NCBI GenBank assembly: GCA_025454875.1
Contig: JALONP010000001.1
Span: 124,001 to 188,000, forward strand
Origin: Bacteroidia bacterium
Lineage (GTDB): Bacteria > Bacteroidota > Bacteroidia > UKL13-3
Direction of reading: 5' to 3'
DNA: 64,000 nt
Part shown: one piece after another, positions 21,630 to 28,638 of the stretch
Numbering within the stretch: the first letter of the stretch is position 1
Layout of the letters: every line of letters starts with the position of its first letter
Notes under the pieces: generated by a model
Databases searched by the model: none
Seen by the model: the letters and a program-made list of their open reading frames with translations, nothing else
What the model was told of the DNA's origin: nothing
Program-made: the position numbers and the translations under genes

Positions 21630-24290
21630 ATGCTTACTAGACTCATTGTTCTCAATTCTAAAGTGTACGGCAAAGCCGAGGTAAGGCTAGATGATTGCGA
21701 CTCATTGCAATTGGTTGGGCCAAATAATATTGGAAAAAGTACACTCATTTACGCCCTTAACTTTTTGTTCATTATTGATGGGCAAAAAATGTCGTTTAGC
21801 GGAAACCGTAAAGGCGATAAAGAAACCATTCACCACTATTTCCCCAACCACAACCAAAGCTTCATTGTATTTGAGGTTTTCAAAAAATCGTATTACAGCA
21901 TTATTGTGAAACGAGACAGTGAGAGTAACCTTGAATATTACTTGCTTAATAGCGAATACAAGGAAGATTACTTTGTTGGCGAAGAAAAACGTTTGCTCAA
22001 GTTTGAAGAGGTGAAAGAGAAGATTGCAGCTTCAGGTCTTGAACTTCAATTGTTTAAAGACAAACGCGAAGTGTTTCAGTTTGTATACCAACGTGGTAAA
22101 CGCAACAACGCAGTTGTGTGGTTAGATGACAGTGTACGCAGCGAAGGTATCAGCAATAATTTTTCGCGCATTTACCGCTACCTTATTAATACCAAGTTAA
22201 TTACCAATAAAAACCTGAAAGAGGCCCTTATTATTGCCGATAACAGGGAAAACGAGACCCTTAACTTCTCACAAAAGAACAAAAAAGATATTAATGACCT
22301 GAAACGTGTGAACAACGAAATCAGGAATTTGAAATCTGTTAAAAATGAGTTTGATGAGTTTAGGGAATTGGTTAGCCAATACAATGCAAAAGCGCGTATT
22401 ATATCGGAACTGTATTATGGCTTTGATAAGAACTACAAGCATACATTACCTGAATTGCAGGTACAATTGCATGATAAAGACAAAGCAATTGGTCGGTTAA
22501 ATACCGAAATGAACGAGGAGTTGATTCCGCAAAAAGCAGAGCTTGATCGCAAAATTGGAGGCAAAGAAGCCGAGATTACCGCTAAATCGCAGTTCTTTTC
22601 AGAAAGGGAGCAAGAGCTTAAAGAAATTGACTCGTACGAACCTGTTAATATCTTAAATGAGCAATTGGCAAACTACGATCAGCAGCGCAAAGAAATTGAA
22701 AGCCGCATGACCATGGCTGAGTTGCAAAAGCTGAACAGCCAACAAATCGAAAATAAAATTGAAACCCTTGGCAGCCAAATAGCAAGGGTGGATATGCAGG
22801 TAAAAAATTACAGCAACTTACTTATCAATAAAATTTCAGGTTCAGTTGAAAATCGCAAGCTGCTCAACTCCATTTTAAGCGAGCAAGTAAGCAGTTTACC
22901 TGGAGATCAAGTATTGAAGCAGATACACAAAATCAGCCAAACCCTTTCGGTTTTTGATGGCCAAATTGATATTTCGAAAAACATCACCATTAAAGACTTT
23001 AAAAACGTTGATGAACTAAAGGCCGAACTTGCCCAGTTAAAAGAAGAAAAGAACCAACAAGAAGCTTTACTCAAAGTAGTAAAGGATATGGAAAAATCGG
23101 GCAATGAATTGAGCCAGATTCAAGCCCATATAGAAACGGTTAAAGTCAAACTTGCCAAAATTAAATCAAAACCAAACTTGGTTAAAACCTTAGAAAAAAT
23201 GAAAGCTGAGGTAAACGAGTTAATGGCGCAAAAGGAAAAGTTTGAAACTGAGCAAAAACAAATTGCCAAAACCATTGCCCGTAAAAGCAATGAGTTACGC
23301 GACTTGCTTGACGACAAACAAAAACGTGCAGAACGTATTAACCGCCTCATTGAAATGAAGCACGAAATTGATGAGTTAGGCTTGGTTGGCGAAGAATTTG
23401 AAACCAACGAAAGCCTAGACCAATTGTTTAACAAGATTAAATTAAACTGGCAGGACCGAATTACCCTCAAAGCTAACAAAGACCATTTATTCGAGAAATT
23501 ACGCGACAAATTGCAAAGCACGTTTGCTGATGAAATGGATTTTATCAAATACGTAGAAGAAGAAGTTGCGTTAATTGAAGACAAAGAGCGCAGCGTGCAG
23601 TCGTTGCTCGAAAGCATTTCGGCACAATTTGCAACACCAGCATATACCTTGCTTAAGCGCTACGAAGAGTTCAAGGAATTTATTTACAATAAGTTCAATA
23701 CCAAACTTTCGCAAACCCGTATCTCCGACATCGAATCGCTTACCATTGAGTTGATGGACAATAAACGCTTGGTGGATGAGGTGCGCAAAATATCGCAAAT
23801 CCAGCAAATTAGCGGTCAGTTGATGTTTGAGTTTGACAATAGTGAGAACTTGAAAGTGCTTGACCACTACCTCGAAAGTGGCCAACAAATTGAGTTTGAC
23901 GATTTGTTCGATATTACACTTCACTTAAGCCGTAAAGGAAGCACCAAGCAGGTAGACTTAGGGCAACAAATTGAAAGTGATGGAACCGACAAGATGATTC
24001 GTTTGGTGATTGTAATGAACATCATTAACCGTTTGGCTTTAGCCGATCATGAGAACCGAATTGCTTTGTTTATTGATGAGGTAGCAACCATCGACAAACA
24101 AAACCGACCTGAGTTGGTGCGTTTTTGCAAAGACCATTTTTTCATTCCGATTTTTGCTGCACCTGATGCCGTTCCCGGATTTGGTAAGTATTACTTCATT
24201 TTCCGCAATGCAGGAAAAATCAATATCAACGAAAAAACCAATGCTGCTTATGGCGAGGTATTGGATAAAACCTTAAAACTGGAAGTGTAA
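21630..24290 (+). CDS. Short MukB/MksB/JetC-like SMC ATPase
   Basis: The 886-residue protein has the SMC plan. Walker A GPNNIGKST is at 30-38 after a short N-terminal strand region; long coiled-coil segments span about 240-720 (many E/K/Q/L heptads such as LAQLKEEKNQQEALLKVV); a signature-like SDGTDKMIRLV lies near 783-793; and Walker B ALFIDEVATID has D816 and E817. It is shorter than MukB (about 1480) or usual JetC (about 1100), so its coiled-coil arms are short. With the next two genes it forms a likely condensin-like complex acting on chromosome or plasmid DNA. No JetD/MksG nuclease is adjacent. MksB or JetC is my inference from fold plan and context, not from a search. Confidence 0.8.
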   Translation: MLTRLIVLNSKVYGKAEVRLDDCDSLQLVGPNNIGKSTLIYALNFLFIIDGQKMSFSGNRKGDKETIHHYFPNHNQSFIVFEVFKKSYYSIIVKRDSESNLEYYLLNSEYKEDYFVGEEKRLLKFEEVKEKIAASGLELQLFKDKREVFQFVYQRGKRNNAVVWLDDSVRSEGISNNFSRIYRYLINTKLITNKNLKEALIIADNRENETLNFSQKNKKDINDLKRVNNEIRNLKSVKNEFDEFRELVSQYNAKARIISELYYGFDKNYKHTLPELQVQLHDKDKAIGRLNTEMNEELIPQKAELDRKIGGKEAEITAKSQFFSEREQELKEIDSYEPVNILNEQLANYDQQRKEIESRMTMAELQKLNSQQIENKIETLGSQIARVDMQVKNYSNLLINKISGSVENRKLLNSILSEQVSSLPGDQVLKQIHKISQTLSVFDGQIDISKNITIKDFKNVDELKAELAQLKEEKNQQEALLKVVKDMEKSGNELSQIQAHIETVKVKLAKIKSKPNLVKTLEKMKAEVNELMAQKEKFETEQKQIAKTIARKSNELRDLLDDKQKRAERINRLIEMKHEIDELGLVGEEFETNESLDQLFNKIKLNWQDRITLKANKDHLFEKLRDKLQSTFADEMDFIKYVEEEVALIEDKERSVQSLLESISAQFATPAYTLLKRYEEFKEFIYNKFNTKLSQTRISDIESLTIELMDNKRLVDEVRKISQIQQISGQLMFEFDNSENLKVLDHYLESGQQIEFDDLFDITLHLSRKGSTKQVDLGQQIESDGTDKMIRLVIVMNIINRLALADHENRIALFIDEVATIDKQNRPELVRFCKDHFFIPIFAAPDAVPGFGKYYFIFRNAGKININEKTNAAYGEVLDKTLKLEV

Positions 24291-24302
24291 CCAAGAGAAC
24301 CC

Positions 24303-25514
24303 ATGAGAACAGAACCAAGGACGATCTTAAACTTCCTCTCCACCTATTTTGATACCATCAAAGCATTATTTGATGTTCAAGCAAAAGATGGTTTGGTAAA
24401 GGTAGAAGTACTTAACCGCATATTAGCTGATGCAGAGCACGAACTGTTGCCTAAACTTATAGAATATAAGTTTTTAAAAAAGGTAGCCGATGATTTTGAG
24501 ATTAGACCTGTGTACTTTAAACTACTTGAGTTTATTTTAAGTGAGTTTAAACCACTGTTACCCGAAACCATTGAGAAATATGAGCATTCCATTACATCTT
24601 TGTTTAAAAAGATAAAAGAAGGCATTGCCAAAGACCGCAATATTTTATTGCAACGCATCACTGATTTAAATAATGAGGTACGTGATTTTACTGAGGCGGT
24701 TGAAAAAAATACAATTCGATTAATCAGTGAAACCAAAGAACTTAAATCGAACGTTGATAAAATTGACTACCGCGAAAAAGTGCGTAAAGCAAGCTTCTGG
24801 ATTGACTATTACATTACCCCTCTTAATAGCATTTTAGATGTAACCAATCCGCACTCAATTACCAATAGGTTGCTTGACGTGTCGCAGTATGTGAATGTGC
24901 GCAGGCTTAATTTTGATGATGAATTGGCACGTCAACAATTTGAAAAGCTTTATACCTTTCTGGTGCAAACCAACGATGACTTGTTGCGTCAGTCCAAAAT
25001 CTTAACCAACGAGTTACTTCCACTAATTGAGCGCATTCGAAGTGAATCCATGATTCTTACTGGTTGGATAGAGTTTTTAAAGAATCCAAATAAAGTAAAA
25101 GACATTTTGCCGTTTGTGCCTAAATCGCTGCGCACCTACCCGTACAACGACAATATGTACTTTAATGCCAAGGAGTTTGTTGACCAATTTATGCAAGTGT
25201 ACGAAGTATACTTAGAGGATACTGTTTTAAGTGCAAGCGATAAATGGATTTTTAACAAAGAGTTTTACCTCACTAAACTCACGCAAGAGCTCCCTGTTTC
25301 CAACTTTTTTGAGTGGGCAGGCAAAACACTGCGTGGCGAATACAAGGAGATTGAAACTGAAAAGTTTTTCTCCCTCTCTACCCTTTTGTTCGAAGACAGT
25401 ATTGAACTTGAATTTGACGATAAAGCCGATCGCATGGTAATACGCACATCTGAAATGAATTTACGAGTACCAAAAATTAAAATTAACCGACATGGATTTT
25501 CCCAGATATCATAA
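24303..25514 (+). CDS. Kleisin-like subunit, MksF/JetA-like
   Basis: The 403-residue protein starts 12 bases after the ATPase gene. It is mostly helical. Residues 10-90 look like a winged-helix domain (VEVLNRILADAEHELLPKL, KKVADDFEIRPVYFKLLEF), residues 95-290 are long amphipathic helices (ITDLNNEVRDFTEAVEKNTI), and the last 100 residues return to a compact winged-helix-like fold (NFFEWAGKTLRGEYKEIETE, ELEFDDKADRMVIRTSEMNL). This is the plan of MukF/MksF/JetA, the kleisin that bridges SMC heads. The call rests on architecture and on position between an SMC ATPase and a MukE-like gene; sequence motifs for this family are weak. It overlaps the next gene by 23 bases. Confidence 0.65.
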   Translation: MRTEPRTILNFLSTYFDTIKALFDVQAKDGLVKVEVLNRILADAEHELLPKLIEYKFLKKVADDFEIRPVYFKLLEFILSEFKPLLPETIEKYEHSITSLFKKIKEGIAKDRNILLQRITDLNNEVRDFTEAVEKNTIRLISETKELKSNVDKIDYREKVRKASFWIDYYITPLNSILDVTNPHSITNRLLDVSQYVNVRRLNFDDELARQQFEKLYTFLVQTNDDLLRQSKILTNELLPLIERIRSESMILTGWIEFLKNPNKVKDILPFVPKSLRTYPYNDNMYFNAKEFVDQFMQVYEVYLEDTVLSASDKWIFNKEFYLTKLTQELPVSNFFEWAGKTLRGEYKEIETEKFFSLSTLLFEDSIELEFDDKADRMVIRTSEMNLRVPKIKINRHGFSQIS

Positions 25515-26043
25515 AGAGATAGTAGCAGATTTGCTTGATGGCAAATTTATTTTGGCAACCGATGCCAAGTTTGTAGAATTAAAAAACAGCGCTGATTTTT
25601 ATGGCAAGTTTTTTAAAGAAACCTTTGAGTTTTACCTCGATATTAAATCAGATTATGCCTACTTGATTAGCGAAGAAACCATGGAAATGCTTAGCCGTGA
25701 CATCTGCATTTTTATTGGTTTGCTATGTTATGAGTTGGATAAGGAAGGCAAAAATTTCCTAGAAGAAATTCAGTATGCCGAGTTTGATTACGATTATATC
25801 GATCAATTGTTCGACAATTCATCTTATATTGATTTGGTTCAAAACAATAACCAGCTTAAAAACAGTGAAGCACGCAGGCAGTTTATTGGAACCCTAAACC
25901 GCAGAAATATTATTGACCGTAGCAACAGCGAGCGCAAGTTCACGTTTACGCCTGCCTACAAAGTATTTATGGACTTTGCTAAAAACTTTGCCAAAGGGCG
26001 CTTAAATGCAGCCGAGGCAGAGGTTGAGGCACTAGAGGAATAA
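25492..26043 (+). CDS. KITE-like subunit, MksE/JetB-like
   Basis: The 183-residue protein overlaps the kleisin-like gene by 23 bases. Its first part (MDFPRYHKEIVADLLDGKFI) and acidic middle (YAEFDYDYIDQLFDNSSYIDL) precede a C-terminal winged-helix stretch, LNRRNIIDRSNSERKFTFTP. MukE/MksE/JetB proteins have two winged-helix domains and bind the kleisin. Size, position and fold plan agree, but I cannot confirm homology without a profile search. A strong terminator 20 bases after the stop closes the operon, so no fourth (nuclease) gene is cotranscribed. Confidence 0.65.
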   Translation: MDFPRYHKEIVADLLDGKFILATDAKFVELKNSADFYGKFFKETFEFYLDIKSDYAYLISEETMEMLSRDICIFIGLLCYELDKEGKNFLEEIQYAEFDYDYIDQLFDNSSYIDLVQNNNQLKNSEARRQFIGTLNRRNIIDRSNSERKFTFTPAYKVFMDFAKNFAKGRLNAAEAEVEALEE

Positions 26044-26062
26044 GTGCGTTTGATTTGACACC

Positions 26063-26102
26063 AAAATGCCCTGCCAGTAAAAAGGCGGGGTATTTTGTTT
26101 TT
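26063..26102 (+). terminator. Terminator of the SMC-like operon
   Basis: A 13-bp stem AAAATGCCCTGCC (26063-26075) and GGCGGGGTATTTT (26084-26096) with two G-T pairs closes an 8-base loop (AGTAAAAA), followed by GTTTTT. Confidence 0.8.
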
Positions 26103-26106
26103 GGGC

Positions 26107-26320
26107 GTGCCCCTTACCCCAATTACTCGGGGCGCGGGTCGGGCTGTACTTGCTTTGCGTAGCTTCAGCGAAGCAAAGCTTGCTCTCGCGTAGCTTCAGC
26201 GAAGCAAAGCTTGCTCTCGCGTAGCTTCAGCGAAGCAAAGCGCTGTATCTGCTTGCCTTGCAAGCAGGATGCCGCTCCCATCCCTCCCGCGGATCGCGCG
26301 GCCGCAGGCCGCGCATATCA
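26107..26320. repeat. GC-rich palindromic repeat block, copy A
   Basis: The 280-base gap between the SMC operon and the GIY-YIG gene holds no gene but a structured repeat. It has a CCCCAATTACTCGGGG hairpin; 31-bp direct repeats at 26157-26187 and 26188-26218 plus a 23-bp partial third at 26219-26241, each containing AGCTTCAGCGAAGCAAAGC; and a GCGCGGCC-GCA-GGCCGCGC hairpin at 26296-26314. A related block is at 36897-37060. The block is much richer in G+C than its surroundings. Confidence 0.75.
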
Positions 26321-26323
26321 TTG

Positions 26324-26932
26324 TTATTGCAAATAAGTTTCGTTGTAAATATCCCTGAGTAACCTGCCATTAAATGTCCAATAAGGTCCTGGTGCCACAC
26401 TGTAGTCCAACTCCAAAATGGCTTTTGTGGCATTGGTTAAAGAAGTTTCTTCACCCCTAAATAGAACAGTACGAGCAGTCTGAACAATAGCAGACTCTCC
26501 ATTTCGAACACATACCAATTCTGAGCCGGCTGCAATTTGCATTTCTGTAAAGTTAAAATTTGGCCTTTTTTTACGCATCGCCTCCCCTGCTTCAAGCGAT
26601 GTAGCATCTACCAACTCAGGCTCCGCATCTACTTGTTGGGTTTGGTCGGCTATTTCCAATAATTTCAAAATAGCAATTGCTTGCAAGGGTTCAATACTAA
26701 AAAACTCACGCTTGGCATTAATTCTGTTCGGACTAAATGCTGTGTGCAATGCCATTTCCACTTTATCTGGGTTGTTTACTTTAGCTGCATAAGCACAATC
26801 AAATGGCACTGGAACACCCGTGCTGTACAATTCGAACATTCGTTGCTTTACATCTACACGGTTGGTTTTGCCAATCTTTACTAGCCCCGGCATGGCAGGG
26901 TTGGTTAAAATATAAATAAGGCCTTGTTCCAT
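26324..26932 (-). CDS. GIY-YIG (T5orf172-type) nuclease-domain protein with RAMA/DUF4357-like tail
   Basis: The 202-residue protein has an N-terminal T5orf172-type GIY-YIG domain: GLIYILTNPAMPGLVKIGKT, KQRMFELYSTGVPVPFDCAY, VEMALHTAFSPNRINAKREF, with the expected Y, R and E positions. Residues 125-202 (AAGSELVCVRNGESAIVQ, LFRGEETSLTNATKAIL, PYWTFNGRLLRDIYNETY) resemble the small RAMA/DUF4357 module found beside restriction enzymes. Its job may be DNA cleavage or DNA binding; it is not part of the nearby operons, being on the opposite strand from the SMC genes and separate from the HIRAN gene by 46 bases. The palindromic repeat block touches its 3' end. Confidence 0.78.
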   Translation of the reverse strand: MEQGLIYILTNPAMPGLVKIGKTNRVDVKQRMFELYSTGVPVPFDCAYAAKVNNPDKVEMALHTAFSPNRINAKREFFSIEPLQAIAILKLLEIADQTQQVDAEPELVDATSLEAGEAMRKKRPNFNFTEMQIAAGSELVCVRNGESAIVQTARTVLFRGEETSLTNATKAILELDYSVAPGPYWTFNGRLLRDIYNETYLQ

Positions 26933-26978
26933 TTAATTGATTGGGTTATGGCTAATATATTTCTTACTAGTACTGTTG

Positions 26979-27638
26979 TCAAAAAGTACTGTCAATAGTA
27001 ATGAAAATGTTTTTAACAATACCATTTTCTTCAATTTGTTTAACCGAAACATTTAACTTCTTATTCGATTCTAAGAAAATATTATTGTGCACATTTTTTA
27101 TGTAACCTATCTCTGTCGTCTGCCAAATTAACTTCACGGCCTTTTTTTTAAAGGCGTGTTTATGGGACTCAATCTTGTAGTCTAGAACATCTCCTACTTT
27201 TATTAAACCTGACTCAATTTTAAAGTGCGATAAGCCAGCGATATCTGAAACAAACTTGAAGCCTTTTTTAGGATAAAAAAGCCCTAAAAATTCATAATTA
27301 TCGGTTGGAAGTAAGCCTTGAGTTAAGGCTAACAATTCGAACTTATCAGTTACTCCTTCTGCCTCCCAGAAATGCAAAATTTTAGAACTTTCTTTTCTTT
27401 CTAATGGAACCAATCTTAATGAAAATATATCTAAATCTCTTTCTTTATATATCGCACTATAGTCTAATGGAAATCCAGAATAACCTTCAAACCCCTCCTT
27501 TTCTGCCTCTTTTCCATCTTCGCTAAGATATTGGAAAGTAATACCTTTGTTGGCAGAACGCTTTAATACACCAACAAGCTTACGCCTTGAGCCATCTCCG
27601 CTTCTCCATGATACATAAATCTCCCTAACTTTAATCAT
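26979..27638 (-). CDS. HIRAN-domain protein with HipA N-terminal-like region
   Basis: The 219-residue protein begins MIKVREIYVSWRSGDGSRRK with RKLVGVLKR, resembling the N-subdomain 1 of HipA (Couple_hipA). The next part (GITFQYLSEDGKEAEKEGF, EGYSGFPLDYS, FSLRLVPLERKE, LLALTQGLLPTDNYEF) is the linker known from bacterial HIRAN proteins. Residues 130-205 (IAGLSHFKIESGLIKVGDVL, LIWQTTEIGYIKNVHNNIF) match the HIRAN beta-barrel, which in eukaryotic helicases binds 3' DNA ends. Its ATG overlaps the kinase stop by eight bases (ATGATTAA), so it is the third gene of the operon. It may be the kinase's inhibitory or targeting partner, as HipS is for HipT; this is inference. Confidence 0.72.
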   Translation of the reverse strand: MIKVREIYVSWRSGDGSRRKLVGVLKRSANKGITFQYLSEDGKEAEKEGFEGYSGFPLDYSAIYKERDLDIFSLRLVPLERKESSKILHFWEAEGVTDKFELLALTQGLLPTDNYEFLGLFYPKKGFKFVSDIAGLSHFKIESGLIKVGDVLDYKIESHKHAFKKKAVKLIWQTTEIGYIKNVHNNIFLESNKKLNVSVKQIEENGIVKNIFITIDSTF

Positions 27639-28638
27639 TACTTAAGACCCTTTCAAGTGCATTAAAACGGGTACAAATTAATCTAAATATTAATTCTTTT
27701 CTTGTTAAAGTTAATTTGCTTGATTCAAACTTATTGGGCAAGCTAAAATCAATTCTTCCTATCATTTCTTTTAATTGTGCTTCATTAAACTGCTTTTGAA
27801 CCCTCTTAATAATTGTACTCAATTCATTAGGATACAAGTTCATGATATTAGAAAGGAATGCAAAATGACCAATTTTATTACCATCTAACCTAATTTCAGA
27901 CTCTCCCTTATGGATATAACGAAGTATTTTATAATCGTCTAACAAAAACTCCTTTATTCTTGCTTCATCAACCTCTCTACCCAAGCTACTGCCACTATCG
28001 TAGATTGGTGCAAATGTGTACTGAAGCATATTCTCTTGGTGCAATATATTGATTAGCGATTTTCTGAATGGCAACTTTTTCAAAGTTAAACCTGATTCTT
28101 TATAATTCTTATATGCCCACCGTATAAATCTGCTTTTGTTGGAAACCAATTTATCCCTTTGAAGCGAACGAATAACTGCCCAATTTTCAGAATGCCTGTC
28201 TTGATTACCAATCAAGGCATCAAAAACCATTATTTCTAGAAAACTTACAATAAAATCGTTACTCTGCAGTGAATTTATGACTTCATTGAAATAGATAGCT
28301 GGTCTTTCAGTTATTTTAAAAAGAGGATTGCTTCTTTTAATTAAACCTATTCCATGTTCTAACTCTTCATGTGTTTGATCTATCATAGATTCACACAAAC
28401 ATCCTACTGTAGTGCAGTAAACAGCGATATTATAGTCTAGCATATTAAAGCCTAACATCTTACCTAGTTTACTCGCGATAATTTCAGACCAAAACTCAGA
28501 AGGATATTTTGATATAGACTCTTTAAAATAATATTGCTTACCGTTCGCAGGGTTTTCTACGAAAAACTTCTCACGTGTGCCAATGGTTTGAATCCAATCT
28601 TTTATCCACCAATCTGATATGTCATAAAATTCTTCCAT
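27631..28638 (-). CDS. HipA-like serine/threonine kinase
   Basis: The 335-residue protein lacks the HipA N-subdomain and starts directly with the kinase-like core. The catalytic loop GNQDRHSENW is at 144-153 (D147, N152) and the metal-binding DSGSSLG at 214-220 (D214), both in HipA_C style. K39 (YYFKES) and E52 (SEIIASKLG) are candidates for the nucleotide-binding lysine-glutamate pair. HipA kinases phosphorylate targets such as glutamyl- or tryptophanyl-tRNA synthetase and stop growth. Two cysteine-rich positions (C75, C80, C82) are noted without a role. The region is AT-richer than the neighbourhood, with many AAA, ATA and AGA codons, which suggests transfer. The gene follows a 56-aa frame by one base. 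Confidence 0.78.
   Translation of the reverse strand: MEEFYDISDWWIKDWIQTIGTREKFFVENPANGKQYYFKESISKYPSEFWSEIIASKLGKMLGFNMLDYNIAVYCTTVGCLCESMIDQTHEELEHGIGLIKRSNPLFKITERPAIYFNEVINSLQSNDFIVSFLEIMVFDALIGNQDRHSENWAVIRSLQRDKLVSNKSRFIRWAYKNYKESGLTLKKLPFRKSLINILHQENMLQYTFAPIYDSGSSLGREVDEARIKEFLLDDYKILRYIHKGESEIRLDGNKIGHFAFLSNIMNLYPNELSTIIKRVQKQFNEAQLKEMIGRIDFSLPNKFESSKLTLTRKELIFRLICTRFNALERVLSND

Follow-up and report, generated by a model that had tools for sequence, protein, structure and literature searches.

A probable MksBEF-type condensin of Bacteroidota with an unusual gene order and nuclease-carrying relatives

The operon described here lies in a window of 64,000 nucleotides from a Bacteroidia bacterium (contig JALONP010000001.1, positions 124,001 to 188,000). 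A first-pass annotation had left three options for it: a chromosome-organising MksBEF, a Wadjet-like plasmid defence with its nuclease elsewhere, or a distinct branch. Of these the chromosomal MksBEF fits best: this is a real MksBEF-type condensin, belonging to a Bacteroidota branch with an unusual gene order. We estimate at roughly two in three the chance that this condensin is a general chromosome organiser that arose when a Wadjet-like module of four genes, either its direct forebear or a relative through a recent common ancestor, lost the nuclease.

The three reading frames (886, 403 and 183 residues), their 12-base gap and their 23-base overlap had been placed exactly to the base, and the reported terminator is there as a 14-pair terminator-like stem (Table 1). 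The operon is not a chance arrangement, because the order SMC-kleisin-KITE and similar protein lengths recur in about 90 related loci, with low dN/dS in mksF and mksE (0.059 and 0.024 against UKL13-3, for nuclease-free operons; mksB is saturated at silent sites).

Table 1. Features of the operon and their positions in the window
Feature	Positions	Strand	Basis
mksB-like gene, short-armed SMC ATPase of 886 aa	21630..24290	+	ORF, motifs kept in relatives
mksB-mksF junction, 12 bp	24291..24302		slot of nuclease gene or remnant in some relatives
mksF-like gene, 403-aa kleisin	24303..25514	+	AlphaFold2 model, Foldseek
mksE gene, 183-aa KITE subunit	25492..26043	+	Pfam PF21980
Intrinsic terminator-like hairpin at operon end	26062..26097	+	14-pair stem, then T run

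The identities of all three proteins are supported, that of the kleisin least strongly, and the earlier description of an SMC-kleisin-KITE operon of the MukBEF, MksBEF or JetABC kind is borne out for each subunit. In MksB, residues 30-38 form the Walker A motif GPNNIGKST, S783-x-G785-T786 the signature and D816/E817 the Walker B; these motifs are kept in relatives, with K36, D816 and E817 invariant wherever the alignment column is filled (78 nuclease-free and 10 nuclease-carrying rows). The window protein itself reaches no curated model; its Nonlabens homologue passes PF12128 DUF3584 (E 2.5e-16). Profile search places the third protein, previously called KITE-like, in the MksE family (PF21980, E 5.7e-21, 76 bits against a cut-off of 27). 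In PADLOC the second and third proteins were unmatched and the first had only weak matches (JetC1 at E 0.007), and no sequence family matched the second. Since PDB sequence searches with all four subunits, the nuclease of relatives included, gave only coiled-coil or chance matches, folds were compared instead. The AlphaFold2 model of MksF is of moderate confidence (mean pLDDT 71), and its top Foldseek matches are MukF chains (9gm7, E 4.3e-4; 3euh; 7nyw). In VIA-align, MukF scored a Z of about 13 and the Wadjet-II JetA 9qe0 a Z of 10.6, with unrelated helical bundles (syntaxin, STAT, CorA) nearly equal to MukF by Z. The kleisin assignment, which agrees with the first reading of this protein, is carried by the ranking of the Foldseek matches and by the coverage of the winged-helix part, not by Z.

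Inspection of reading frames found no nuclease gene next to the operon in the window, as had been stated, and the window's genome gave no match to the short nuclease described here. Ten relatives do carry a TOPRIM nuclease gene, of 261-279 residues, between mksB and mksF. Three are in the window's family (G025, G011 and G012); the others are in Pontibacter, Nonlabens, Mesonia, Arenibacter, a Cyclobacteriaceae MAG (G248), G425 and the second operon copy of G252. That relatives have a linked nuclease was missed at first because other genomes were needed to see it. The motifs VENxxxF, DYDxxGL and FLEQE of the short nuclease stand against TENxxxF, DIDxHG and RLEQE in JetD, and PF09983 JetD_C was passed by one short nuclease (26.7 bits, cut-off 22) and just passed by another (22.3). 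Comparison with JetD by hhalign was weak (probability 1.4, E 0.036), with the catalytic motifs aligned, and the fold comparison decided the assignment as MksG/JetD-like. The predicted structure (mean pLDDT 84) has a winged-helix-like N-terminal domain and is closest to Corynebacterium glutamicum MksG (8b7f; Z 13.7, rmsd 2.8 over 152 residues), followed by Pseudomonas aeruginosa JetD (7til; Z 12.3, rmsd 3.0 over 157 residues) and then topoisomerase VI A.

A linked nuclease is not a feature of all homologous loci: only a minority are armed, one has a remnant and most have neither. The remnant, at locus L063 (genome G034), consists of about 150 bases of the 3' end of the nuclease gene left in the junction, and it documents at least one nuclease loss. 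At most of the remaining loci the junction is short and bears no nuclease trace, and tblastn of the other widened junctions found no further remnants. One such junction (L089) holds two unrelated surface-protein genes and another (L094) an unrelated reverse-strand ORF. In one genus group (L061:7653-7893 and the junctions of L063 and L121) the junction is filled with short repeats, about ataaatagccgttagcggttactgagcgaag, which looks as though repeats gather where the nuclease was lost.

Known operons of this kind run kleisin-KITE-SMC, with or without a nuclease gene at the end, and the mksFEB order is usual for MksBEF without being strictly defining. The operon departs from that order: the window and its branch have SMC-kleisin-KITE, and F-E-B occurs only in divergent relatives (f9). 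The unusual order pointed out in the first-pass annotation thus stands; the short arms listed beside it are present, but MksB normally has a shortened coiled coil (PMC4255302). With MksBEF (Petrushenko 2011, reviewed in PMC4255302), the window operon shares a short-armed SMC, a kleisin, an MksE-family KITE and a nuclease-free operon. Apart from gene order, it differs in that its proteins have diverged too far to give solid sequence matches in PADLOC, NCBIfam or the PDB and that hosts of the window type have no detected SMC-ScpAB, whereas P. aeruginosa has both systems. The SMC-kleisin-KITE core is also that of Wadjet (JetABCD, MksBEFG; PMC10123090, PMC10586767), and the nuclease of some relatives has a predicted fold resembling MksG and JetD. 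Unlike JetABCD, however, the window locus has no nuclease gene, and that of armed relatives is short (the JetD of the window's genome has 390 residues) and is placed between the SMC and kleisin genes. Similarities to MukBEF lie in the MukF-like kleisin fold, in a probable chromosomal role and in the replacement of SMC-ScpAB in its hosts, and differences in gene order, in phylum and in the long arms that the window SMC lacks. The general condensin role proposed for the operon would be shared with SMC-ScpAB, although the operon has no ScpA homologue and its SMC falls under the TIGR02168 cut-off.

Relatives of the operon are nearly all in Bacteroidota, the closest named relative being Bacteroidetes bacterium UKL13-3 (93%). 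Genes split over contigs aside, one copy of mksB per genome occurs in 52 of the 64 genomes of the window's family and in 38 of the 45 of high quality; it is missing from the other 7, so the operon is not indispensable. Four good-quality genomes of family f1 (G027, G066, G007 and G004) have neither an MksB of this branch nor ScpA, possibly having no known condensin at all. A record titled Candidatus Competibacteraceae (L117, JACSSC010000028.1) has a Bacteroidota-type operon whose SMC is nested among Flavobacteriales-labelled MAGs, and its title looks wrong.

Neither ScpA (PF02616) nor an SMC above the TIGR02168 cut-off was found in any of 35 tested family genomes, the window's own included. In this family the operon is probably the general chromosome organiser, and probably the sole machine of that kind that remains. 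The four class relatives with such an SMC are the same four that have ScpA. Across 396 Bacteroidia genomes, the operon SMC was found in 53, ScpA in 94 and both in 2 (Fisher p 5e-5, counted by genome). Grouped by taxonomic family the avoidance is gone (two of ten families, p 1.0), and it thus reflects few clades. Most sampled Bacteroidia have neither, so absence of the one does not require the other. In the three tested genomes that have the operon together with ScpA (G248, G425 and Pontibacter) it is always armed, and G252 has two copies, one of them armed (L139); among the tested genomes, none with ScpA had the operon in its nuclease-free form. Over 26 rows the link between nuclease and ScpA has p 0.046, without kinship correction. 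Six armed genomes, the three in the window's family and the Flavobacteriaceae Nonlabens, Mesonia and Arenibacter, have no ScpA alongside, and in the first three the armed operon looks like the sole condensin. The pattern of operon, ScpA and nuclease rests on few lineages.

Neighbouring genes of the window locus are not conserved, except a ferredoxin gene common to UKL13-3. Within clades they are: a tRNA-methylthiotransferase-like gene recurs in 16 loci and chorismate synthase in 11, which fits vertical descent. One genus has parA and parB about 3 kb upstream of the operon in four loci; parS-like sites were found neither in the window (up to 2 mismatches) nor in the loci (up to 1 mismatch). Just 3' of the operon terminator, a 31-bp repeat stands in three head-to-tail copies (window 26157-26249; two identical, one 84%), and just downstream (26324-28638) are a reverse-strand T5orf172/GIY-YIG-like gene, an uncharacterised ORF and a HipA-like kinase gene; these neighbours were not found beside the operons of relatives.

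One could imagine that the complex borrows a nuclease in trans, and a JetD does exist in the same genome. It is, however, the only one there, and it closes a complete JetABCD operon of type I Wadjet, as its fourth gene, on contig C15 (L042:6547-13102; PADLOC matched JetA, JetB and JetD). Upstream of that operon lies a serine-recombinase-like gene (L042:2886-4484), and downstream an XRE/LexA-like regulator. Moreover, a full-scoring JetD_C was found in only 2 of 35 tested family members, this genome and G028, whereas mksB is nearly universal (a weak third match, in G025, is the short in-operon nuclease). JetD so restricted cannot serve a core operon, and we regard its use in trans as very improbable; the earlier option of a Wadjet-like system with its nuclease elsewhere is disfavored on the same grounds. 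Whether nucleases were lost or gained is a different matter, and either would be compatible with a chromosomal role. The three-gene form might be ancestral, the nuclease having entered the mksB-mksF junction repeatedly. A tree of 94 SMC proteins shows at least 7 changes of nuclease state, a count that omits six rows without downstream DNA and that fits gain or loss alike. Inside the window's family the nucleases are only 33-38% identical against 59-74% for mksB, as expected of separate acquisition, although rapid divergence of the nuclease genes, or their exchange, could also give this; and the nuclease-free sisters L070 and L083 have junctions of only 9-10 bp. Against repeated gain, outside the family nuclease and SMC have diverged to about the same degree (47-52% identity), with the same supported clades in both trees, and the L063 stump records a loss. 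Since change counts cannot separate the two directions and the divergence of the family nucleases is odd, the direction is certain only at that stump. We consider repeated gain rather unlikely, and descent from a nuclease-carrying module the better account.

A defensive role for the nuclease-free form is also conceivable: the complex would compact and silence plasmid or phage DNA by extrusion, or recruit a host nuclease. Homologues in Nonlabens, Mesonia, Arenibacter, Pontibacter and the Cyclobacteriaceae MAG are armed and patchy, and subunits are 91-98% identical across three Flavobacteriaceae genera, as for a moving defense module. The nuclease-free copies, by contrast, are single-copy through the family with neighbors conserved in clades, unlike a defense island, and a complete Wadjet is separately present; such a defense therefore seems improbable to us. 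In favor of a chromosomal role we count this family-wide single-copy presence, the lack of ScpA and of an above-cut-off SMC in the tested family genomes, the ScpA avoidance by genome, the nuclease carried by all three tested genomes with both operon and ScpA, the armed second copy of G252, the parAB vicinity, the L063 remnant, the low dN/dS of nuclease-free mksF and mksE, and a separate Wadjet that already offers plasmid defense. Counted against it are the high-quality genomes that lack mksB, the absence of avoidance by family, the armed genomes in which the operon looks like the sole condensin, the many Bacteroidia with neither system, and the moderate confidence of the kleisin model. On balance the chromosomal role is the reading we prefer. 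A more specific version, in which an anti-plasmid SMC-nuclease module became the sole general condensin of the cell while one family still contains armed, relic and disarmed forms side by side, we hold tentatively, at a little short of an even bet.

By analogy with MukBEF, MksBEF and Wadjet, we imagine that the MksF kleisin would link two MksB ATPases and carry the MksE KITE subunits, and that ATP-driven engagement of the MksB heads, the kleisin bridge and KITE-assisted handling of DNA would together drive loop extrusion. The nuclease-free motor would then only organise DNA, while the armed form might extrude a small circle completely and then cut it, complete extrusion being the trigger for cutting proposed for Wadjet (PMC10586767). 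The complex most likely derives from, or is recent kin to, a module of SMC, short TOPRIM nuclease, kleisin and KITE from which the nuclease was later lost. How the complex assembles, that it extrudes loops and works on the chromosome, and which way the change went in most parts of the tree are all inferred.

In a Hi-C study of gut bacteria, two Bacteroidetes turned out to have none of the known condensins, and its authors suggested that further SMC complexes await identification (PMC10197239); the branch described here is a condensin candidate for several other Bacteroidia families, not all. The idea that JetD loss turned Wadjet into MksBEF and MukBEF is not new, having been proposed in a review on indirect grounds (PMC10586767). 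The branch itself, the order of its genes and the intermediate states are new, and because armed, decayed and disarmed operons occur in close relatives, the idea becomes testable. If it is true, the conversion of an SMC complex from defense to housekeeping can be watched directly.

Two further loci were noted in the course of this work. In G334, a JetD-like ORF of 314 residues (L153:1498-2442) lies on a separate contig from the mksFEB genes of that genome, upstream of a Cas9-like protein start (L153:2-775) on the same strand. In G096, a DUF3584 SMC gene (L154:2-2112) is directly followed by a 284-residue DUF7281 protein (E 5.6e-13) that resembles the short TOPRIM nuclease, perhaps another system of an SMC plus a short nuclease.
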